A stretch of 20,293 bases of DNA from a virus, in IMG/VR virus record IMGVR_UViG_3300042542_000857, positions 1-20,293 of that record; one strand, 5' to 3'. The position numbers and the translations under genes are program-made. Positions 3,986 through 19,792 of this stretch are shown piece after piece; within the stretch, counting starts at the first letter, position 1; each line of letters begins with the position of its first letter. A model generated the notes under the pieces. The model was given only the letters and a program-made list of their open reading frames with translations. It was not told the DNA's origin and ran no database searches.

Positions 3986-5755
3986 CTAATAACCCAACAA
4001 GTTATAGTCTAACAAACCCGTAACATCGCTATCCAAAGTGAAAGCCTCGTTATCAAGCGTTGCCAGCTTGAAAGTGATCATGTATGAATCAACATTCATC
4101 TCTTCAGTAACACCAATGATTCGCGCATACTTACTAATGCGAGTGCCAACACCGTTAGGTTGAAATTTGACCTGCACTATTGAGCAAATGTCCAAAGACA
4201 AAACACGGTTTATTTGTGTATTTGTCAAAGGATTCAACATGACCGTTACAGACTCAAAACGATACTCCGGCTCACCATACTTTGCTACATACATCAAAGC
4301 TGCTGAGATCATTGACGCATCATCCACATACAACAATCCACTATCGGCAAAAGCACTATTACCGTATAGCGCAATGGACTCAAGGTTTTTTTCCGTCACC
4401 GAAGCGGTGCCGCCCAAACGCTCAAAAGTCACCTGGTTGTAAAGAAGCTCAGTTCCATAAACAATGTTGATGCCCTGATAAGCAATGTCACTACCATCAT
4501 CAGTAAACACAACATCAGAAAGCAACTCGTAACCACGAGCTTGAAATTGAATAGTCCCACCATTGTCAAGAAAGAAAAAGCCTTTCTCTGTGCGTTCCAC
4601 AAGTTGAACATACTCAAGAATGTTTGTGCCAGCTGCGATCGTGTGCGACTGCACTTCATCAGTATTAGTAACATCCAAAGTCCACTCTGGCCCACCATAC
4701 GGCCAAGTCACTTCAGGCTGACTCAAAACATAGCCAATACGGTTACCAGCTGTTTGTTGAGCCGGAGTCAAAGCCGAAATGGTTTGCTGTTGAGCCAAAA
4801 ATGAGAAAGCATCAACACCCGTAGCGGAAGCTGTTGAGTCACCACTAATGTCGTAACTCAAATTCCAGTCTTTTACAAAACCCCAAATACGGCCATAACC
4901 TTCTGACAAAATTTGCACACCAAGATTAGGAATGATCAAACCGTAGTAAGGGTTAGCGTATTGAACAAAAGTAGAAGTAGATGCCTCTGCTGTGCCTGAC
5001 CACGAATAGATTTGATAATTAGTATCCGTAGTGTTGCCACTAAAGTATGTGCCAACAGTCGAAGCTTGTTCAACCATTGCATAACGCCATGTCATTGTGC
5101 TGTTTAGTGGTCTGATGATTGAACCAGTAGTGTTACCGCCATACATTCGAACAGACACAGCACCAGCAGGAGCGGTATAAGTGCCAACCAACCTGGTTTC
5201 AACACCAGCAGTCAAGGTTTGACCTACACCAACCGCCACATCACCTAAAGAAGTTCCGCCCGTATCATAGAAAGTAGCCGCCAAACGGCGAACATCATTG
5301 ACGCTGGAAGTGACATACATCGAAAATGCATAAGTCAAACCAGCAGTAACTTGAATTCGTGCAGCGGTCGTGCCACCAGTAACGCCAAACGAGTAGACAA
5401 CTGTGCTTGCTGCTGTAGTGACAGTATCTACCGCACCATTAGCTGTCAAAGTAGTAGTTCCAGCACCACCAGTTCCACGGTTCAACATCTGCCAAGTTTC
5501 CTGCGGTGACACAGGAGCAGAAGTAGACGGAACAGGATTCTTTACTAAGTTAGTGCGAGTAGTCGAATCTGTGTATTGCGGATCAAAATAACGCAAACGG
5601 TTATCAAACTCGACTGCAAAACTGCCAGCTTCAAACTTATCTAACTCACGACTCCGCCCGCGATCTATTGTCACGGATCTTACATACTGACTCACATCGT
5701 AAGTAGTTACACCATCAGCAGCTACAAAATTGACTTGATAACTAGGAACAGGCAT
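3986..5755 (-). CDS. Minor tail protein with inserted carbohydrate-binding-like domain
   Basis: This 589-residue protein follows the tape measure, where distal tail and baseplate hub proteins lie in siphoviruses. Residues 5 to 62 (VNFVAADGV to YFDPQY) look like the start of a distal tail or hub protein. Residues about 69 to 245 (from TNLVKNP to YFSGNTTDT) form a Gly/Thr/Val-rich beta domain resembling a carbohydrate-binding module, and residues 246 to 589 return to the tail-protein body. I chose ATG 5755 because it shares the TAATG stop-start overlap used at many junctions here. The open frame reaches back to 5776, but no ribosome site precedes that ATG. The likely role is a tail-tip structural protein that touches host surface sugars. 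Confidence 0.82.
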   Translation of the reverse strand: MPVPSYQVNFVAADGVTTYDVSQYVRSVTIDRGRSRELDKFEAGSFAVEFDNRLRYFDPQYTDSTTRTNLVKNPVPSTSAPVSPQETWQMLNRGTGGAGTTTLTANGAVDTVTTAASTVVYSFGVTGGTTAARIQVTAGLTYAFSMYVTSSVNDVRRLAATFYDTGGTSLGDVAVGVGQTLTAGVETRLVGTYTAPAGAVSVRMYGGNTTGSIIRPLNSTMTWRYAMVEQASTVGTYFSGNTTDTNYQIYSWSGTAEASTSTFVQYANPYYGLIIPNLGVQILSEGYGRIWGFVKDWNLSYDISGDSTASATGVDAFSFLAQQQTISALTPAQQTAGNRIGYVLSQPEVTWPYGGPEWTLDVTNTDEVQSHTIAAGTNILEYVQLVERTEKGFFFLDNGGTIQFQARGYELLSDVVFTDDGSDIAYQGINIVYGTELLYNQVTFERLGGTASVTEKNLESIALYGNSAFADSGLLYVDDASMISAALMYVAKYGEPEYRFESVTVMLNPLTNTQINRVLSLDICSIVQVKFQPNGVGTRISKYARIIGVTEEMNVDSYMITFKLATLDNEAFTLDSDVTGLLDYNLLGY

Positions 5756-8085
5756 TACGCAATACCTGCTCTCCATGAAGTGCCATTCATGCGTTCATAA
5801 TCTTTCAAAACCTTTACGATCGAGCGGCCCACAGCCACACCATCAGTTCCGATACCAGCGTTCACAGTAACATTTATGTTTGTTTGAGAGCCAGGGTTGT
5901 CGTAAGCCGAGCCGATAGCTGCCTCGCCAAACATCATGTCCACTAGAGGCGCAAGAAACGACTTGTTTGTTCCGGCAACACCAACAATGCCATCCATAAA
6001 CGCTGTCTTGAACGACTTAGCCAAAGTCTTAGCAGCTTTTACAAGCTCCGAGTCAGCTTGCAAAATACCCTCAATAAGACCCTTAGATAGATCTAAGCCA
6101 GCACCATACATAACCTGAGCTGCTTCTTCACCTATACCAGCACCCGTATTAGCTAAATCACCAAAAAGACCATTCAATTCATTTACGGCCGCTTGACCAC
6201 CTTGAACAAGAGCCTCAGCAACAGCGGCACCCTGCTCAATACCGCCACCTAGAATCTGCTGATACAACTCAGAAGAAATGTTCATTGCGCGCAAAGCTTC
6301 AAGGTTCTTAGCAAAGTCTTTAGTCTTACTGAGAATGTCGCGGAACTTACCAATGATGTCAGCAGCCGAAGCTACACCCTTGACAGTTGAAGTCAAAGTA
6401 GTCTGAAACTTACCAACCATGTAAGTAACAGTCTTAGTTATTTCTCCGGCAGAGTCACTAAGCAATGAAGACAAGTTTCCAAAACCGATAACAGCAGCCT
6501 TAGTGTCAGCGATCAGAGCCTTACCAAGCGAATACTTCTTGAGAAGGTTGTCACGCTCACGACCAATCTGCGCCATCTCGGTCTTGACCGTATTCGCATA
6601 ATCTGTAAAAGCCTTAGCTGCCGATTTAGTAATAAAGTTTTTATCCAAGCCTTCTTGGACAAGATCAGTAATTTTCTTGAAAGATTCAACAACAGCAGAT
6701 TCAAACTTGCCAAGTTCACGCTGAACAAAAGTCGCAGGAAAAATGTTTTGCAAAGCTGCGCGAATTGCTCTAATCCAATCAAACATGCCATTATCAACGC
6801 TTTTAGGATCTGGCTTTGGAATAGTTAGATCAACCTCGAAATCCCACTCCCAGGCTTCGCTCTCAAGCTTGAATCCATAAATCTGTTCGATAAGTTCATT
6901 GAGTTTTGCGTCAATACCATCAACGCCCTCGCCAAATGTTTTAGTGAACCAATCAAACATGGATCCGGCAGGGCCGAACATCCACTCAAATAGTTCACCA
7001 AGTTTTTTCATCAACAAACCAATAAGAATGGCAACAATCTTGATCGGCATAAGGATCATTTTGACGATTGTTCCAATAGCTCCGAGAGCTTTGATAATGA
7101 TGTCAAAAACAGGCTGTATCATTGCCCACAAACCATAAAACAACGGTGCAATCGTAGTGAACAAGTAATACATCACATCAGCGACAGGTTGCATCAAGTT
7201 ACCAACCATAGTGATGACTTCGCCAAGAATCTTACCCATTGGTGCAAACAACATTTGCAAAGATTTACCCAAAGTGTTGAACACAGGTTGCCAAGCTTTT
7301 TGAATACCTGGCATTGCTTGCCGGAAATACGCAATAAAGTTTGCAACAGGCTTTAGAAGCGGCTGACCAAACGCAGCTTGAGTATCTTTCAAAGCACCAT
7401 TGAGTTTTGCTTGCTGTGCAAAGAGGTTGTCTGATTGCCTACCAAACGCACCCATAGCGTCACCAGCACGAGAATAGAGCAACTCCATACGGGCAACCAT
7501 TTGAGCCTGAAGCAACTCAACACCAGTTAGATGACTCAAACCCTTAGAGGCCACAAGAGCGTTTACTTCAGCCTGTTTCATGGCAACACCGAACTTTTCA
7601 ATCGGGTCATACTCACCACGGAACAAAGCGGTCATAGCAACAAGAGCTTCAGAAACATCGTAACCATAAGTAGCCGCAAGGTCAGAACCCAAAGTCGTAA
7701 GACGCTGTGACTCTTCCGAAACCTCACCCATTTCGAAGCCAGCTTGTTTCAGCACCGAACCAATAAAGGTAATAGATTTAGCCGCATCAACCTGCGACAA
7801 ACCAATCTTGTTAGCGTTCTCAATAAACTTTTCAACTGCAGCTGAAGCGTCACCAAAAATAGTTTCAACAGCGATCATTCCACGCTGAAGATCACGAGCC
7901 TGGTTGATAGCTTCTTCCATAAAGTTGCCAGCTGACATACCCCCCAAGCCACCGCCAACACCGCCACCAATACCACCAGCCATGTCTTTCATAGAAGCAC
8001 CAAGTGCTTTTATAGAACGACCAGCATCATCAACGCCCTTAGAGCTAAAAGCCGACAGAATCGGAACAATAATCTTTCCAGCCAT
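5755..8085 (-). CDS. Tape measure protein
   Basis: This is the longest gene in the window (776 residues), and its sequence is mostly helical with Ala, Gly and Lys richness, as expected for a tape measure that sets tail length and carries proteins to the host membrane. A glycine-rich linker (about 37 to 53) follows the N-terminus. Residues 60 to 240 resemble the conserved N-terminal region of phage tape measures (AAKSITFIGSVLKQAG, then YGYDVSEALVAMTALFRGEYD). A long hydrophobic stretch, about 276 to 360, could insert in the membrane. At about 1.5 angstrom per residue the tail would be near 116 nm, an inference from other phages. The ATG overlaps the preceding stop as TAATG. AAAGGA lies rather far upstream, so translation may depend on coupling. 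Confidence 0.93.
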   Translation of the reverse strand: MAGKIIVPILSAFSSKGVDDAGRSIKALGASMKDMAGGIGGGVGGGLGGMSAGNFMEEAINQARDLQRGMIAVETIFGDASAAVEKFIENANKIGLSQVDAAKSITFIGSVLKQAGFEMGEVSEESQRLTTLGSDLAATYGYDVSEALVAMTALFRGEYDPIEKFGVAMKQAEVNALVASKGLSHLTGVELLQAQMVARMELLYSRAGDAMGAFGRQSDNLFAQQAKLNGALKDTQAAFGQPLLKPVANFIAYFRQAMPGIQKAWQPVFNTLGKSLQMLFAPMGKILGEVITMVGNLMQPVADVMYYLFTTIAPLFYGLWAMIQPVFDIIIKALGAIGTIVKMILMPIKIVAILIGLLMKKLGELFEWMFGPAGSMFDWFTKTFGEGVDGIDAKLNELIEQIYGFKLESEAWEWDFEVDLTIPKPDPKSVDNGMFDWIRAIRAALQNIFPATFVQRELGKFESAVVESFKKITDLVQEGLDKNFITKSAAKAFTDYANTVKTEMAQIGRERDNLLKKYSLGKALIADTKAAVIGFGNLSSLLSDSAGEITKTVTYMVGKFQTTLTSTVKGVASAADIIGKFRDILSKTKDFAKNLEALRAMNISSELYQQILGGGIEQGAAVAEALVQGGQAAVNELNGLFGDLANTGAGIGEEAAQVMYGAGLDLSKGLIEGILQADSELVKAAKTLAKSFKTAFMDGIVGVAGTNKSFLAPLVDMMFGEAAIGSAYDNPGSQTNINVTVNAGIGTDGVAVGRSIVKVLKDYERMNGTSWRAGIA

Positions 8086-9312: not shown

Positions 9313-9726
9313 TTAGGCTGTTGCGCGTGATACGGTGCCGCTGGTAGGCCATGTGACCGACAAGGTAGCGATGTCGCCAACCGAAGCCGAGTATGGCTGA
9401 TACTGCGAAACCAAGCATACAGCGGTGTAGGCAGGGTTAGTTGCCGATACTGCGGTGCTAGTCGGGGTGATAACAACAGTAGCGTATGAGCCACCGCTGA
9501 AAAGAGGGTAGAGGGTTGCATCAACAGCTGCAGCACCAAAGTCCTGGAAGAAGTTTAGGGTTACAGAACCCGACTTCAAGCCAGCAACGCGAGTGCGCCA
9601 TCCGCCACCAAAAGCGGTGGTTTCAAGTTCATCTGATGATAGGTCAAGAGTTGCCGACTGAAGAGAACTCGAAAGGTTCGTTCCGTTTACGGTAATCTTG
9701 TGGTCTGTGGCTGCGTAAACTGCCAA
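9313..9726 (-). CDS. Major tail protein
   Basis: This 137-residue protein is beta-rich with the familiar beginning HKITVNGTNLSSSLQSATLDLSSDELETTAFG (residues 9 to 40, described by its parts), followed by WRTRVAGLKSGSVTLNFFQDF and a C-terminal SVTWPTSGTV. This pattern of a short N-terminal strand set, an ELETTAFG loop and a GSVTL strand is typical of small phage tail tube proteins. It forms the rings of the tail tube. The start is TTG at 9726 with AAGGAG five bases upstream. No ATG is close by, and an upstream stop limits the frame. It lies between the tail terminator and the chaperone, as expected. The TTG start on a highly expressed gene is notable but well supported by the ribosome site. 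Confidence 0.9.
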   Translation of the reverse strand: MAVYAATDHKITVNGTNLSSSLQSATLDLSSDELETTAFGGGWRTRVAGLKSGSVTLNFFQDFGAAAVDATLYPLFSGGSYATVVITPTSTAVSATNPAYTAVCLVSQYQPYSASVGDIATLSVTWPTSGTVSRATA

Positions 9727-9735
9727 TTTGACTCC

Positions 9736-10143
9736 TTAGTTAGCTTGGACAACACAGGTAAACTCTGCTGCCAAATAGGTTGTTTCTCCGATGGTGGTTG
9801 AGCCGTAGTTTCTCATGTCAGTCACGATCAGGTCAAAAACTTTTCCCGATAATGTCCTATTTGATTCTATCGCACTCTTGATACTAGACGATCCCGTTGG
9901 TGAACAGTAGTCGTCAAGCTTGTTTTGTGCCGTTCTGGAATCAGCCATGCCCACAACCAGGGTGATTGTGAAGCTGTATGTGTTGAGTCCGTTGTTGAAC
10001 GATTTGTGATACTCCACATTTTCTGGAGTAATGATTGCGTAAGGCGGATTGACTTGAGCAGGGATCACTCCGCTGGAACGCAAACCTAGAACTGTCAAAA
10101 GGTTCGTGGCAATGCCATCACGGATCTCTGTAAGAGTAGGCAT
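9736..10143 (-). CDS. Tail terminator-like protein (gpU role)
   Basis: This 135-residue protein starts MPTLTEIRDGIATNLLTVLG and continues with alternating beta strands (YSFTITLVVGMADSRTAQNKLDDY at about 56 to 79) and a final strand TYLAAEFTCVVQAN. The layout of an N-terminal helix, a beta sheet, a middle helix and a last strand fits the tail terminator fold of siphoviruses, which caps the tail tube and joins it to the head. Its location between the head-tail connector and the major tail protein supports this. The ATG overlaps the preceding stop as TAATG, and TAAGG lies somewhat far upstream. Sequence conservation in this family is low, so position carries much of the weight. Confidence 0.72.
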   Translation of the reverse strand: MPTLTEIRDGIATNLLTVLGLRSSGVIPAQVNPPYAIITPENVEYHKSFNNGLNTYSFTITLVVGMADSRTAQNKLDDYCSPTGSSSIKSAIESNRTLSGKVFDLIVTDMRNYGSTTIGETTYLAAEFTCVVQAN

Positions 10144-10754
10144 TAGTAATACTGCCTTAGAGTCCGGTAAGGATCTACCAGCATTGCTACATCAGGGTCA
10201 ATGCGTGTGCCGACACGAATAAAGCCGAGATCAGGGCTTGATAGAACGCCTAGAGGCGATTCGTTGCGTTTGAACACGCGAGCAGCTTGCAAAATCGTTG
10301 CCTGTTTGATCGCAATAGGCACAGCAGACCAGCCCCAAGTGCCTGTGATTCTCACGCAAGCTTCTTGAACATTTATAGGGAACAGTTTGTCATCTACGGC
10401 TCGCAAAGCAGTCGTAGGCCATCCGGTAATGCCACCAGACACATTGTTGAGTGGTTCTTTCTGATAATCAGTAGAAGTCCACACATTGTCGTAAACAGCG
10501 TCAAGATCGTCAGCGGTAGCCACTTCAGTAATCGTGATGGCATCGTCAATAACCGTGTAGTAGTTGGTGTCTGCAACAAAGTAGCGTGTGGCAGTTCCGG
10601 CGTTGTAAAAGTAACGCCCTGCGTAAGTGTCTAATGCCCGCGACGAAGATTCGATTGCCAACTCTATGAGAGTGTCGTCAATAGTGTCAGCGGATGGGAT
10701 GCGTAAAGCAGCTTTGACCTCAGCCAAAGTTGCATAACCGTTAGTGATTGCCAC
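10143..10754 (-). CDS. Head-tail connector (gp6/gp15-like adaptor)
   Basis: This 203-residue protein begins ITNGYATLAEVKAALRIPSA and DTLIELAIESSSRALDTYAGR (about 3 to 22 and 28 to 48), the usual opening of phage connector proteins that dock under the portal. The central part is beta-rich (YFVADTNYYTVIDDAITITEV). The end is helical, with PIAIKQATILQAARVFKRNESPLG near 146 to 169. It starts with GTG at 10754 with AAGGAG five bases upstream. In most siphoviruses this gene follows the capsid gene directly. Here three carbohydrate genes stand between them. Confidence 0.82.
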   Translation of the reverse strand: MAITNGYATLAEVKAALRIPSADTIDDTLIELAIESSSRALDTYAGRYFYNAGTATRYFVADTNYYTVIDDAITITEVATADDLDAVYDNVWTSTDYQKEPLNNVSGGITGWPTTALRAVDDKLFPINVQEACVRITGTWGWSAVPIAIKQATILQAARVFKRNESPLGVLSSPDLGFIRVGTRIDPDVAMLVDPYRTLRQYY

Positions 10755-10772: not shown

Positions 10773-11201
10773 CTATTTTACTTGCTCAACAATACGCTTC
10801 TTCAGATCGGTCGTAGAGATGCCTGAAGTGTAGGGAATGTAGCACAAGCTAATGTCACGCTCGTCAAGCCAATCCTGATCAAACTGCATCTGTTTGTAAT
10901 AGTCACGCCTAGCCCAATCTGAGCCAATGATCACAAAGTCTGGTGCCGCTAACTCAATCGCAATCTTAGAATCCGCCCCGCCAACATTCGGCACAACGGC
11001 ATCCACATACTTGCAACCCAACAACACAGCCTCACGCTCTGCATACGACATGACAGGCGAACGACCCTTATAGGCTTTGATGAACTCGTCAGTATTGAGC
11101 GAAACAGTCACAGAGCCGACTAGCGCACATTTCCTCAGAAACGCTACATGGCCTGAGTGAAACAGGTCGAATGTCCCGCCTGTGTAAACTTTCAGTCCCA
11201 T
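10773..11201 (-). CDS. TagD-like nucleotidyltransferase (cytidylyltransferase family)
   Basis: This 142-residue protein has the complete catalytic layout of the small cytidylyltransferase family: YTGGTFDLFHSGH at residues 6 to 18 with the HxGH motif (H15 to H18), and GISTTDL at about 127 to 133, the ISTT signature that binds the nucleotide phosphates. Family members join CTP (or another NTP) to a phosphorylated alcohol or sugar, such as glycerol-3-phosphate or a heptose phosphate, to give an activated donor. The exact substrate cannot be read here. The ATG overlaps the end of the glycosyltransferase gene by ten bases and has AAGGGA at six bases. Together with two glycosyltransferases it probably supplies an activated precursor for virion or host surface modification. 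Confidence 0.9.
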   Translation of the reverse strand: MGLKVYTGGTFDLFHSGHVAFLRKCALVGSVTVSLNTDEFIKAYKGRSPVMSYAEREAVLLGCKYVDAVVPNVGGADSKIAIELAAPDFVIIGSDWARRDYYKQMQFDQDWLDERDISLCYIPYTSGISTTDLKKRIVEQVK

Positions 11202-11839
11202 CGGTTATCCCTTCGCACTTGCAAACTCCAGACACCTTCGGAGTAATCTTCTTCTTCGGTTTTTTTGTGAAGAAGAGCTTGATTCTTTCCATAAGTGCGA
11301 CCATTAGCTGCCTCAAATCCTGAGTTCAAAGTTGAACTGTTGTCATGGTTTACTTTAGCGTCAATCCATTTAGGTTCGAACCCTGCGTGTTTGATCCGGC
11401 GTTCCATGTCGTTGTCATCGAAATACAGCGGATAGAAACGCTCGTCATACAGCCCAACCTTAGCGACTACTTGCTCGCCAAAGATTGCACAAGACCAATG
11501 CGGAATAATGCTTGGAAAGCTGATCGTTTCAGGCGAAGCTTCCTGACTGATTTTTTCTAACGATCCAGGTGCAAACCATGCGTCATCGTTCACTAGCACC
11601 CAATACGGAGCATAAGGCGTGGACTTGATAATGAGATTCCATGCACCGACAAGACCCAAGCCAAACGGGATAGGCAACACCCACACATGGGTGACATTCT
11701 CGTTCTCTGGTGGTAGGTATGTTCCTGTGCCAGAGTTGTCAATAATGACGAGATGCTCCACAGGATAGTCAATAGACTTCACCAAGCGATCTGCAAGGTC
11801 AAACCTATTTACTGTTGCAAAGCCGATGACCGGAATCAT
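11192..11839 (-). CDS. GT2-like glycosyltransferase (GT-A fold)
   Basis: This 215-residue protein starts MIPVIGFATVNR and shows GT-A features: a VIIDNSG strand-turn (31 to 37) for nucleotide binding, VLVNDDAWFAPGSL (81 to 94) containing the acidic DD pair that serves as the DxD metal site, and YFDDNDMERRIKHAGF (139 to 154), the usual acceptor-side acidic block. I chose ATG 11839 because it forms an ATGA overlap with the stop of the preceding glycosyltransferase. The open frame extends 14 residues further back, inside that gene, without a ribosome site. The family moves a sugar from a nucleotide donor to an acceptor. The acceptor may be a capsid or tail protein, inferred from the location among structural genes. 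Confidence 0.88.
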   Translation of the reverse strand: MIPVIGFATVNRFDLADRLVKSIDYPVEHLVIIDNSGTGTYLPPENENVTHVWVLPIPFGLGLVGAWNLIIKSTPYAPYWVLVNDDAWFAPGSLEKISQEASPETISFPSIIPHWSCAIFGEQVVAKVGLYDERFYPLYFDDNDMERRIKHAGFEPKWIDAKVNHDNSSTLNSGFEAANGRTYGKNQALLHKKTEEEDYSEGVWSLQVRRDNRWD

Positions 11840-13017
11840 GCAAGCAACGCATCCAGAGCAGGAATCCAATGCTTTTTCCAAACAGCCTCAACATCAAACT
11901 GTTGTGCAAAGTCAATGCAAACTTGTGAGCGACCTCTAGGTGCGTCATACGCTTTGTTCAAAGCATCCACGATAGATGGCACAAGCGGAATAGACCACCA
12001 AGCATCCTGACCACTATCCCAAGTTGGTTGCCCTTCGACAAGGAAGCAATCTTCAGCAACAAGGTCAGGGGTAGCTGCCCAATTAGAACCGATGACACGA
12101 GTTCCGACTGCCTGGGCCTCAACCGTGGGAACGCCAAAGCCTTCACCGTAAGAAGTGACAAGCATTACATCCATAGCCGTCATCAAAGCGGCCACCTGAT
12201 CGGTTTCCATACCGTAACGGTAATCAACAAGGTTAGGGAATCGCACAGAGTCTTGAGGAATACCTACAGCTTCGCAAAGCTTCAACAGATTCCAGCCACC
12301 TGCGGCACCAAGCGGATCGGTGTGTAGGTAAAGCTTGGCATCAGGGTGGTCTTTTAGAAAGATGCTAAAAGCAAGCAGGTTCTCGCTAAACGCTTTACGG
12401 TGAACAAGTCCAGATGCTTTGTTCGCAGCTACCATGCCAACCACAAAGTCATCATCGTTGAAACTTAGATACTGACGAGTAGGCACACCGCTGATCTCGT
12501 AAGTCGGTTTCATCGCTTTCGTGTCAATAGCGTGTGGCACATAAAGACAGTCAATGCCTTTCTCCTGCATTTGACGCTGACCATGCGGTGACATAGCGAT
12601 CGGTGTCACATTAGGTTTACGCAACCACGCCTCAACCTTTGGTGGCATCGTGATGTGGTCTAGTGGAGTCCATGAGGCGATCCGGCGCATCCTGTCCCAA
12701 GCTGCACCCTTCAACACCCAAACATCGTAGAGCGTGATCATTAGGTCAGTTAGACCAGGGTGCTGACTTAGGAAGTGGTGGTGGTTCATTGGCCCTACAT
12801 CGTTAGAGTAAGGTTCAAAGCCACGAGCATAGTGAGGGATGACACCGTGTGGTGTTTCTAAAGTCGTGTTGCGACCCTCAACACCATAGTTAGAAATAGC
12901 TGCGGTCGCATAGCCATCACGCACAAGACGATCAACAAGATAACCAGCCTGAACACCGTAACCCGTTGGCTGATACGGGCTATTCGACCAAACCGTTACT
13001 GCACCCTTTTTAGACAT
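11836..13017 (-). CDS. GT4-like glycosyltransferase (GT-B fold)
   Basis: This 393-residue protein has the C-terminal donor site of GT4 enzymes: SYGEGFGVPTVEAQAVG at about 289 to 305 with the E292-x7-E300 pair, preceded by VVGMVAANK and RKAF (192 to 210) holding basic residues that can contact the nucleotide phosphates. The N-terminal half (WSNSPYQPTGYGVQAGYL, 10 to 27) has the glycine-rich acceptor-domain loop. The start at 13017 has AAAGG seven bases upstream. An open frame reaches 13110, but it would cross the terminator stem and has no ribosome site, so the shorter form is right. The gene begins 42 bases after the capsid-gene terminator and overlaps the next glycosyltransferase gene by four bases. 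Confidence 0.9.
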   Translation of the reverse strand: MSKKGAVTVWSNSPYQPTGYGVQAGYLVDRLVRDGYATAAISNYGVEGRNTTLETPHGVIPHYARGFEPYSNDVGPMNHHHFLSQHPGLTDLMITLYDVWVLKGAAWDRMRRIASWTPLDHITMPPKVEAWLRKPNVTPIAMSPHGQRQMQEKGIDCLYVPHAIDTKAMKPTYEISGVPTRQYLSFNDDDFVVGMVAANKASGLVHRKAFSENLLAFSIFLKDHPDAKLYLHTDPLGAAGGWNLLKLCEAVGIPQDSVRFPNLVDYRYGMETDQVAALMTAMDVMLVTSYGEGFGVPTVEAQAVGTRVIGSNWAATPDLVAEDCFLVEGQPTWDSGQDAWWSIPLVPSIVDALNKAYDAPRGRSQVCIDFAQQFDVEAVWKKHWIPALDALLA

Positions 13018-13113: not shown

Positions 13114-14283
13114 TTAGCTTGCGCCACCCTTGAACCATACAGCGTGAGCTGAGTGGGTTAGGTTACCATCAACGCGCATCGTGACACGGAAAGTGGTCAC
13201 ATCCTTGTCGAAAGCGTAGTCGCCCGACTGAGCGACCTGGATTCCACCAGCGGTGCGAACCTTGTATGAAGGTAGGTGACCGAAAAGAACCGACTTTGCG
13301 CTGGTAGCAACAGCTGGCATAGCAGGGTTCTCAATTAGGCGGTAGCCGAGGATCTGGTCAGGCTGACCAGCGGTGGCAGGGGTGAAGATGTAGTTACCTG
13401 CACCATCCTTGATCTTGCGGATCGAAGCGATAGCCGACTTGCCAGCGAGGAAGCCCACGCCAGGTAGTAGACGAGCCTGACCGTCAAGTGCGTAAACAAG
13501 GTCTACGAGGTTCTCGTAGGTTGCTGCACCGGATACACCAGTTCCACCAGTAACAGCCGAAGCTGCAGCGGTGAGGATACCAGTAGGTTCAACAGTTCCA
13601 GTTCCGTTGGTTAGACCGTTGTTGACGGCAAAACCGATAGCGTTACCAGCTTGTTCTGCGATAAGTGCCGACAGGTCGAAACCAGCGTCAGTTAGCAGTT
13701 CGTTAGCAACAGGAACGAGGAATGAATACTTGAACGCACCTAGAGTGATCGAGCTGAAGGTTGGCTCTGACTCTGAGATTGCTGTTCCAGCACCCTTGAT
13801 GGTTGCGGTCGAACGAGCAGTCAGGGTTGGGATGGTCAGCGACTCACCAGTAGTGGTGTTGATGACATCCGAAACATCCAGCATTGGGCCAGCAAGACGG
13901 GCAATCTGGAATACCTGGTTGTAGAACGACTTTGGAACGGTGTTGTCGCTTGGAACAAGGGTGCGCTTCTCAGAAGCGAACTCGTGTCCACGCTGCTCAC
14001 CTAGTGCGATTGCACGAAGGATGTCGCTGTCATCTGCCGAACGGGTGTTCGATGGAATGAACGAAGCAGCAGCTTCAGCAGCTCGCTCTTCGCGGGCAGC
14101 TAGTTGGTTAGCCGACTCAATAAGCGCAGCACGCTCGTCAAGTTCAGCAGAGATGCGAGTGTATGACTCGTTCTCTTCTGCGGTTAGGTCACGCTTCTCA
14201 GTAGCAGCACGGTCAAGAATAACCTTTGCAGCTTCCCAAGCCTTAGCGCGAGCTTCCGCCTGAAATTTTGCAAATTCAGACAT
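13114..14283 (-). CDS. Major capsid protein, HK97 fold
   Basis: This 389-residue protein starts MSEFAKFQAEARAKAW and has a helical N-terminal region (about 5 to 70) rich in Glu, Ala and Arg, matching the delta domain of HK97-type capsid proteins that acts as an internal scaffold and is later removed. The capsid body begins around residue 95 to 115 and shows typical stretches such as FYNQVFQIARLAGPMLDVSDV, SLTIPTL and SFLVPVANELLTDAG, then a C-terminal VTTFRVTMRVDGNLTHSAHAVWFKGGA. The ATG at 14283 has TTAGGAGA at correct spacing. The frame is open to 14358, but that extension covers the repeat-bearing leader and has no ribosome site. Its protease and portal lie just upstream. Terminators flank the gene on both sides, suggesting an insulated high-level transcript. 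Confidence 0.93.
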   Translation of the reverse strand: MSEFAKFQAEARAKAWEAAKVILDRAATEKRDLTAEENESYTRISAELDERAALIESANQLAAREERAAEAAASFIPSNTRSADDSDILRAIALGEQRGHEFASEKRTLVPSDNTVPKSFYNQVFQIARLAGPMLDVSDVINTTTGESLTIPTLTARSTATIKGAGTAISESEPTFSSITLGAFKYSFLVPVANELLTDAGFDLSALIAEQAGNAIGFAVNNGLTNGTGTVEPTGILTAAASAVTGGTGVSGAATYENLVDLVYALDGQARLLPGVGFLAGKSAIASIRKIKDGAGNYIFTPATAGQPDQILGYRLIENPAMPAVATSAKSVLFGHLPSYKVRTAGGIQVAQSGDYAFDKDVTTFRVTMRVDGNLTHSAHAVWFKGGAS

Positions 14284-17706: not shown

Positions 17707-19242
17707 CTAAATGTAAAAGCCTGGCACGACTGCCTCTTCTATTCTACTGCCCGATCTGTCATACGCTATGACTGCAGCTACAGCAGCGTCAATCCGGCGA
17801 TTAGAACCACGGTTCTCTTTTACGATTCGCGGCCCCAGATTGTCCATCTTTACAACAGCGTTATCAAGGTGACGGGCAATCATCGGATTACCGTCATGCG
17901 TGATGCGTTCTTCCAACACAGCGTCATAGAAAGATGCACAAGCAACAACCATGCGTTTCGCGGAAGTAGACGGCCATTCAACAATCGGCACACCAGCATC
18001 CTGCAACACTTCCATAGAGCGTTGCCAACGGAACGGGTCACAAGCAACCTCACGAACCTTGAACCTGCCACAAAAGTCAAGAATGGCGTTTTCTGCATCC
18101 TGAATGTCCACACGCCACGAATCATCAGACTCGGCAGGTTTCTCCCAAGCCTTCACAAGAAACAGGTGCGGTTTCTCTTCCTCGTTCGTTGGAATCCGGC
18201 AACCCACAATCACAGTCGTGTCACCATTGAACGAACCGTCAAAGCCGAGAACATACTCAGCGTCAGCGTCAATCTGTTGCACCGTTTCGCAAGCATCCCA
18301 AGTGCCAGTCGGCAACCAAGACATTTGTGACGAAACCCATTGGTTGCAACGCTTCGTGCGAAACTCTGCCTCTGGCGTTCTACGCACAGACGATTCAAAG
18401 TCCGACAATGCACAAATGTCACCCAGACCAGGGTTAGCGATCTCCCAAGTTTCCTGCAACCTGTGATCAGCTTCTTGCGGAGCTTCCCACCAAGCCATAA
18501 AGAATGACGGGTCATCTATTTCGCCACGAGCAACCTTCTGCCCATACTGATATAAGGAGTAACAAATAGAGTCTTGACCCGTGCTGTCCGATTTGACACC
18601 AGCAGTAGTAATCGCAATCAAAGTAGCCATAGAGCCACGCGCACCCTGAGCAAGCGACATAACATCGAACAGTTCGCGGTTCGGCTGTGCATGCAACTCA
18701 TCGAAGATCACAGCAGTCGGTGAAAGGCCTTCCTTCGTGAAAGCCTCAGACGAAAGCACACGATACACCGAGTTCATCTCAGGAATTTCAATAGCGTCGC
18801 GGTAAAGCTTCGCCATGCTCATCAGATCCGGTGACGCTTCAACCATGCGTTTAGCTTCAGCAAACACGATACGAGCCTGGTCACGGTCAGCTGCACACGA
18901 ATACACTTCCGCACCCTTGATACCTGCAGCATACAAACTGTAAACGCCGAGCGTAGACGCAAGAGCCGACTTGCCCTGTTTGCGGGGCATGCCGATCAGG
19001 TTTATACGGTGCCGCAACCCACCATCGTCACCACGAGCAAACACATGCCTCAGCAAATCCTTCTGCCACTCACGCAACACCAACGGCGAACCTGCACGAC
19101 CCGCAATCGAATCCTTAGTGATGATGCCAAAAATCTCGGCAAACTCTAAAACAGACTCACCCTTACCAGACGCAATCGCTGGCTCAGGAACAGGAGTCAG
19201 CCAGGCAGGAGGCCAAGCCTTAGATTTCATTACCCCAGACAT
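17707..19242 (-). CDS. Terminase large subunit
   Basis: This protein of about 511 residues pumps DNA into the head and cuts it. The ATPase half has a Walker A-like GMPRKQGKSA (about 84 to 93, with the lysine at 91), and a Walker B PTAVIFDELHAQ (about 175 to 186, acidic pair D180 and E181) followed by ITTAG as a coupling motif. The nuclease half has GFDGSFNGDTT (from about 333) with the first metal-binding aspartate, and RRIDAAVAAV near the C-terminus with another. I chose ATG 19242, which has GAAGG five bases upstream. ATG 19230 is also possible, and the open frame reaches 19278. All of these overlap the end of the methyltransferase gene. The length fits Terminase_1-type proteins. Confidence 0.92.
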   Translation of the reverse strand: MSGVMKSKAWPPAWLTPVPEPAIASGKGESVLEFAEIFGIITKDSIAGRAGSPLVLREWQKDLLRHVFARGDDGGLRHRINLIGMPRKQGKSALASTLGVYSLYAAGIKGAEVYSCAADRDQARIVFAEAKRMVEASPDLMSMAKLYRDAIEIPEMNSVYRVLSSEAFTKEGLSPTAVIFDELHAQPNRELFDVMSLAQGARGSMATLIAITTAGVKSDSTGQDSICYSLYQYGQKVARGEIDDPSFFMAWWEAPQEADHRLQETWEIANPGLGDICALSDFESSVRRTPEAEFRTKRCNQWVSSQMSWLPTGTWDACETVQQIDADAEYVLGFDGSFNGDTTVIVGCRIPTNEEEKPHLFLVKAWEKPAESDDSWRVDIQDAENAILDFCGRFKVREVACDPFRWQRSMEVLQDAGVPIVEWPSTSAKRMVVACASFYDAVLEERITHDGNPMIARHLDNAVVKMDNLGPRIVKENRGSNRRIDAAVAAVIAYDRSGSRIEEAVVPGFYI

Positions 19243-19792
19243 CCCAACCTTCATAGTGATCTCTAGCGAATAACTCAATACGGCTCACATCTGGAAACAT
19301 TGTTTCAATGCGGGTTCTTACTTCTTGTGGCTTTTGAGAATGTTTTTTTCTTTCTGCTTCAACAAGTTGTCTAACATTACGGGCTTTGAGTAATTTATGT
19401 GCAGAACCTTTGGTAAACAATAAAGCAATTTCTGAGCCTTTCATTGTCCAAGTTCCCATAAAGCAAACTTGCTTATTTGTGCTAGTTTTCTTGTTCCAAA
19501 TAAAGGCAACGGTTTTGTAAGTAAATCCAGCTAAGTGGCCTAACTCAATGGCTAAAGGCAAATGTGCATCAGTTGTCCACATGATCATTACTGCATTTTC
19601 ATTAGGCAACTTTGCTACTTGATTTTCAAAAAAGGTTTTTAGCTCCAAGTCAGACATAGTTGGATACTGAAATTCTTGCAAAGACTGTTGTTCTTTGCCC
19701 GCAGTCCCAACTTTGAATTTACTGCCAAAATGCCACGGCGGGTCAGCGTAAATAACATCATATGTTTTAGTCGGAAAATTACTAATTGCCAT
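19220..19792 (-). CDS. MT-A70-family adenine-N6 DNA methyltransferase
   Basis: This 190-residue protein carries DVIYADPPWHFG (12 to 23) with the catalytic DPPW of MT-A70 enzymes, which transfer a methyl group from S-adenosylmethionine to the N6 of adenine. Further matches are VMIMWTTDAHLPLAIELGHLAGFTYKTVAFIWNKK (in parts, about 68 to 102), GSEIALLFTKG (118 to 128) and the C-terminal IELFARDHYEGWDVWGNE, where the family has its RPGW-like end. The start has GGAG four bases upstream. It overlaps both the small terminase stop and the large terminase start. A hand count gives about 38 percent G+C over 19261 to 19790 against about 50 percent in lines beside it, which suggests a recent arrival. It probably modifies phage DNA to escape host restriction. 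No cognate nuclease is seen. Confidence 0.92.
   Translation of the reverse strand: MAISNFPTKTYDVIYADPPWHFGSKFKVGTAGKEQQSLQEFQYPTMSDLELKTFFENQVAKLPNENAVMIMWTTDAHLPLAIELGHLAGFTYKTVAFIWNKKTSTNKQVCFMGTWTMKGSEIALLFTKGSAHKLLKARNVRQLVEAERKKHSQKPQEVRTRIETMFPDVSRIELFARDHYEGWDVWGNEI

Follow-up and report, generated by a model that had tools for sequence, protein, structure and literature searches.

What would a phage make with two glycosyltransferases and a nucleotidyltransferase encoded between its capsid and connector genes, and on what would these enzymes act? The question is raised by a 20,293-base virus contig fragment from IMG/VR (here called the window, meaning the whole stretch that was analyzed), which represents an incomplete genome. 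Nearly all genes in the window are on the minus strand, in the order terminase large subunit, portal, a small ORF, prohead protease, major capsid protein (MCP), terminator, GT4-type glycosyltransferase (GT4), GT2-like glycosyltransferase (GT2), nucleotidyltransferase (NT), gp6-like connector, tail terminator and major tail protein (Table 1). A first-pass annotation had described the three enzyme genes as an overlapping operon behind a capsid terminator, and this description is borne out: all three ORFs are real and lie on the minus strand, and a terminator directly follows the MCP gene. The GT4 and GT2 genes overlap by 4 nt (ATGA) and the GT2 and NT genes by 10 nt, which fits translational coupling. 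On its other side, NT is separated from the connector gene by 18 nt.

Table 1. Positions of the cassette, its flanking genes and other genes mentioned in the text
Feature	Position in window	Strand	Matches and remarks
MT-A70 family adenine methyltransferase	19220-19792	minus	PF05063, 63.5 bits vs 23.9
Major capsid protein (MCP), HK97 fold	13114-14283	minus	PF05065 7.7e-60; 49% identical to phiPsal1 MCP
Intrinsic terminator, between MCP gene and cassette	13098-13059	minus	17-bp stem and T run
GT4-type (GT-B) glycosyltransferase, 393 aa	11836-13017	minus	PF13692, PF00534, phrog_2170
GT2-like GT-A glycosyltransferase, 215 aa from own ATG	11192-11839	minus	phrog_29879
NT, HxGH nucleotidyltransferase (CTP_transf_like), 142 aa	10773-11201	minus	PF01467
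gp6-like head-tail connector, downstream slot boundary	10143-10754	minus	PF05135 8.7e-5, 23.3 bits vs cut-off 21.2; phrog_442 1.5e-17
Tail terminator	9736-10143		Follows gp6-like connector in gene order
Major tail (tube) protein, outside cassette	9313-9726	minus	phrog_4574 9.9e-30
Putative tail fibre protein	3986-5776	minus	Weak CBM_4_9 match, below cut-off
WhiB-like transcription factor	1922-2263	plus	PF02467

The glycosyltransferases and the nucleotidyltransferase

The identities that had been given to the two transferases hold, by Pfam cut-offs for GT4 and by predicted fold and PHROG match for GT2. GT4 scores above the cut-offs of two families (PF13692, 36.1 against 27; PF00534, 34.2 against 26.4), is 52% identical to the product of gene 010 of Pontimonas phage phiPsal1, and keeps the E-x7-E motif (E292/E300), of which E300 is invariant in relatives. 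GT2 falls below the cut-off of PF00535 (18.4 against 23.3), which its phiPsal1 homologue passes (24.6), and matches phrog_29879 'galactosyl transferase' at 4.7e-31. Its AlphaFold model (pLDDT 93.9) has a GT-A fold with many glycosyltransferase matches in the PDB (best E 5.7e-9). GT2 carries an NDD motif (N84, D85, D86), and D86, D142 and H165 are invariant in relatives; by analogy, the protein would hold an acidic metal/donor motif and an acidic base within the GT-A fold.

NT belongs to the HxGH nucleotidyltransferase superfamily by its score against PF01467 (CTP_transf_like; 4.6e-13, 49.9 bits against a cut-off of 21), its fold and its HxGH motif. The structure prediction that had been proposed as a check gave a confident model (pLDDT 87.9), and the folds closest to it are those of CTP enzymes. 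The best PDB matches are the cytidylyltransferase (CyTase) domain of Fom1 (5x3d, 37% identity) and GCT (1coz, 34%), followed by a second TagD-type enzyme (30%), phosphocholine and phosphoethanolamine cytidylyltransferases, and HldC (26-27%). NT had been called TagD-like, which is right at the level of fold but not of family, since NT clearly misses the curated cut-off of TIGR01518 (69.9 against 165.4 bits). Assignment to the HldE/RfaE C-domain is likewise rejected (TIGR02199, 63.3 against 181.5 bits), and the HldE-type name of phrog_7878 on NT is a mere label. Of the two TagD signatures checked, HxGH is present as HSGH, and RTEGISTT reads YTSGISTT, with a tyrosine in place of the arginine; this residue, Tyr124, is invariant among relatives.

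Among the matches listed, 83 distinct NT relatives retain the signatures GGTFDLFHxGH, YK45, R56, GxDW and YTxG(I/V)S(S/T)T, and the active-site residues are invariant across relatives. NT shares with the Fom1 CyTase domain and TagD (1coz, 2b7l) the fold, HxGH, K45, R56, GxDW and the (Y/R)TxGIS(S/T)T region. However, its identity to these enzymes is just 30-38%, and D100, Y101, Q104, M105, F107 and W111, all invariant in the alignment of the NT family, are absent from Fom1. NT is probably a cytidylyltransferase that activates a donor, as its closest structural relatives use CTP, though HldC matches too. Candidate donors are a CDP-alcohol, a CDP- or ADP-sugar, or a phosphonate, among which the predicted structure favours, short of proof, a CDP- or CMP-linked compound. 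A genome scan for cellular relatives of NT returned at least 18 loci, six of them close and some resembling phage contigs; their neighbours are sugar or sulfotransferase-like genes, which indicate no substrate.

A fixed slot with exchangeable content

Relatives were fetched from viral contigs by pattern-based retrieval with MCP, NT and GT4, and their genes were mapped with profiles built from the window proteins. Many of these contigs are fragments, their ORFs were called mechanically, and all counts in relatives are counts among the matches listed. The survey of this position, which had also been suggested, shows that at least about 130 distinct IMG/VR relatives, together with phiPsal1, carry a modular cassette there. 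The window belongs to this capsid-adjacent group, with GT4 directly after the MCP gene and terminator and ahead of the gp6-like connector.

Among the matches listed, 175 loci that extend far enough upstream have GT4 right after MCP, while in 12 an ORF call intervenes. In loci selected by MCP rather than by the enzymes and with a complete interval, GT4 is present in 55/55 and NT in 39/55 (among the matches listed). Among the matches listed there are 133 distinct cassettes complete from GT4 to connector, in which GT4 is present by construction; NT occurs in 90 of these and never without GT2, 19 have GT2 without NT, and 24 have neither. GT4 is constant in the family and the downstream part is exchanged. 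Occupants of the slot in relatives include various types of GT2, NT, NAD-dependent epimerases, a UDP-glucose-dehydrogenase-like protein, methyltransferases, extra glycosyltransferases and homing-type endonucleases. phiC31-like outgroups have an empty slot, and in phiC31 and Samora the next head gene begins 72-85 nt after MCP.

The terminator is conserved too: a strong hairpin with a T run follows MCP in 92/97 distinct relatives, compared with 4/97 shuffles and 2/296 other gene ends (among the matches listed). It probably lets only read-through transcription pass to the genes behind it, so that the enzymes would be less abundant than the capsid protein.

The homing-type endonuclease genes, of the Endonuclease-VII or HNH-like type, are found within the cassette or at its edge (L020, 6449-6979; L021, 4564-5118; L023; L030; L031; L049) and are a possible agent of cassette exchange. 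The UDP-glucose-dehydrogenase-like protein (255 aa) lacks the C-terminal part of its family and is encoded in or after the position of NT (L149, 7320-8087; L157, 10508-11275). In addition, one full MCP-GT4-GT2-NT-connector cassette (L163, JAIXXV010000018.1) is on a 34-kb contig binned into a 0.8-Mb bacterial metagenome-assembled genome, and this contig may be a pointer to the host or a misbinned phage. The host could not be read from this bin, GT4 being absent from the other 14 genomes examined of the same family.

NT accompanies specific partner transferases

The presence of NT follows a simple rule. In a first set of loci, positions 84-86 of GT2 separate the cassettes, in that 82/83 with NDD have NT and 18/22 with other motifs lack it (among the matches listed). 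All 4 exceptions carry a small protein of 168-183 aa, here called GTX, and a partner of NT was accordingly defined as either an NDD-motif GT2 or GTX. With ORF-masking removed, NT is present in 144/145 GT2-bearing cassettes that have a partner and in 0/35 that have none (180 distinct GT2s, among the matches listed). Seeming exceptions to the rule are masked ORFs or contig ends, and the sole NDD-type cassette without NT (L149) is one of those with the UDP-glucose-dehydrogenase-like protein.

As the GTX part of the rule is post hoc, it was tested on new loci fetched by GTX and by the SED type of GT2. These held-out loci fit in 75/75 cases, with NT in 58/58 that have a partner and 0/17 that lack one (among the matches listed). 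The SED group is near a clade that was already known, so its 17 loci do not count as independent. The GTX group makes a better test, since NT and GTX occur together in several gene orders (GTX-GT2-NT, NT-GTX-GT2 and GT2-GTX-x-NT) and outside capsid loci, relatives of GTX adjoining or neighbouring NT in unrelated phage loci. Loci of the latter kind, where NT is next to or near GTX without capsid genes, are L341-L348, L053, L059, L064, L070 and L075; the pair is often followed by a protein of 585-597 aa with a GT2-like start. The capsid-locus form of GTX has no PHROG match and GTX has no credible PDB match, and comparison with GT2 gives 41% probability over 47 columns. With no reliable fold or family, GTX is termed a putative transferase only.

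The motif classes of GT2 are clade-structured, so the 180 cassettes amount to far fewer independent events, about 6-9. Phylogenetically independent pairs link NT to NDD, at 6-7 against 0 on the connector tree (p 0.016-0.03) and 5-6 against 0 on the MCP tree (p 0.03-0.06). Among five trees of the same 80 GT2-bearing loci, that of GT2 needs the fewest changes in NT presence, 3; the GT4 and MCP trees need 8 each, the connector tree 9 and the tail-terminator tree 10, and shuffles give about 13. NT tracks the tree of GT2 and not those of its neighbours, so it most likely makes the donor of its partner transferase, as far as sequence comparison can tell.

These patterns also bear on whether NT is an unrelated passenger, linked to GT2 only through the joint movement of adjacent genes; we consider this improbable. 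The physical overlap of NT and GT2 eases co-transfer, and a small adjacent pair can correlate without a common function, but the connector, 18 nt from NT, shows the 9 changes where GT2 shows 3. A passenger would also not be expected to accompany GTX in differing gene orders and at non-capsid loci, or to keep its active-site residues invariant. The earlier suggestion that the phage activates its own donor is very likely correct, given the tie of NT to specific partner transferases and the presence of other donor-modifying enzymes, the epimerases and the UDP-glucose-dehydrogenase-like protein, in the slot of relatives.

Comparison with known phages

The nearest isolate is phiPsal1 (MG835450), in which genes 010-012 occupy the same slot in the same order, with MCP, GT4, GT2 (39% identical) and a neck protein. 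It differs in having a methyltransferase on the opposite strand between GT4 and GT2, an SND-type GT2 and no NT. The paper reporting it does not discuss the phage further, and the function of its cassette was never studied (PMC6106888). An overlapping GT-GT-NT operon, with NT 54-55% identical to that of the window, is found in Streptomyces phages (Faust 78-80, Jay2Jay 39-37). Its transferase is of a different family (phrog_14945) and the operon lies away from the capsid genes, which implies that NT does not depend on a capsid-side place for its function. In the Microcystis phage Mae-JY09, a GT4 (35% identical), a GT-like protein and an epimerase lie between MCP and the head-tail adaptor, although the host is a cyanobacterium and the interval contains no NT.

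Mycobacteriophages (Che8 and others) provide a precedent for function. Like the window, these actinophages encode their own glycosyltransferases, and glycans are found on their capsid and tail-tube proteins (Freeman 2023, as cited in PMC12619734 and PMC11256854). The passages of these two papers that deal with the work describe no paired nucleotidyltransferase. In the related F1 phage Maravista, according to the same passages, the transferases are encoded close to the 3' genome end, unlike the capsid-side cassette.

No paper on this cassette was found in the open-access literature searched, which speaks only weakly for its novelty. In its working the cassette would resemble the gene sets with which other phages glycosylate their virions, and phiPsal1 was deposited with a sister arrangement that drew no comment, so the system is not of a new kind. 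Two features are seemingly undescribed in that literature: the combination of a conserved terminator with a constant GT4 and exchangeable genes, and the strict tie of NT to a single motif class of GT2 or to GTX. Phage glycosyltransferases are common and mostly lack an assigned donor or acceptor. The tie of NT to two transferase types, by a simple rule that can be tested in vitro, points to a single common donor.

Function of the cassette

We lean towards reading the cassette as a modular locus, expressed late, for glycosylation of the virion. This reading fits the data best, with a virion protein as the presumed acceptor, a part of the proposal that has less support than the donor role of NT. 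Position and polarity within the structural operon favour such an acceptor, and the actinophage precedent adds plausibility. Candidates are the major tail (tube) protein, which is about 28% Ser+Thr, and the C-terminus of MCP, KGGAS, which is kept in most relatives. No analysis here separates capsid, tail tube, fibre and host wall as the acceptor.

Co-occurrence alone names neither the donor, nor the order of transfer, nor the acceptor, but a scheme can be suggested. NT would link a nucleotide to a sugar phosphate or to a small compound that is phosphorylated or a phosphonate; the nucleotide is probably CMP, taken from CTP. The NDD-type GT2 would use this activated product as its donor. GT4 would attach the first sugar to a structural protein, with the capsid and tail-tube proteins as the likeliest targets, or would build a core onto which GT2 adds the phage-made residue.

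More tentatively, the fixed capsid-side slot could be a 'surface-type' locus at which matched pairs of donor-synthesis enzyme and transferase are exchanged. NT might then feed an unusual CMP-activated compound (a phospho-alcohol, a phosphonate or a rare sugar) to the NDD-type GT2 or to GTX, giving the virion a decoration that the host cannot supply. Swapping of the GT2/NT/epimerase part might, speculatively, change the surface group, with host defences, receptors or grazers as the selecting agents. A constant capsid-side GT4 with exchangeable later enzymes suggests that cassette exchange lets aquatic phages vary the surface chemistry of their particles, in a way comparable to the variation of surface polysaccharides in bacteria.

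The main rival to virion glycosylation is that the enzymes modify host cell-wall glycans, either for superinfection exclusion or so that progeny do not stick to debris, and that their capsid-side place is a slot tolerant of inserts. This appears rather unlikely, even though wall modification is an established role of phage glycosyltransferases and has been named for freshwater actinophages too (PMC10202952). The homing-type endonucleases of relatives indicate that the slot does accept inserts, but GT4 stays beside the capsid gene across relatives. NT resembles wall-pathway enzymes such as TagD, yet the wall of the nearest host lineage has polyrhamnose in place of teichoic acid (PMC6106888). 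A late operon position would be odd for exclusion, and no integrase-type gene is seen in the window and no membrane transporter or flippase gene is recognized in the cassette. There is only a slim chance that the cassette glycosylates phage DNA in the manner of T4, as put forward for other freshwater actinophage glycosyltransferases (PMC10202952), since the enzymes sit in a virion operon and the gene content of phiPsal1 makes it unlikely, its complete genome encoding homologous GT4 and GT2 without an annotated hydroxymethylase, thymidylate-synthase-like or base-hypermodification gene, and with just an N6 methylase.

Other genes in the window

Three further genes of the window lie outside the cassette (Table 1). 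The MT-A70 family methyltransferase gene is placed between the genes of the putative small terminase and the large terminase, with overlapping ends. The match of the putative tail fibre protein, CBM_4_9, is to a carbohydrate-binding domain. The WhiB-like gene, on the strand opposite to its surroundings, is an actinophage marker and is annotated in phiPsal1 too.
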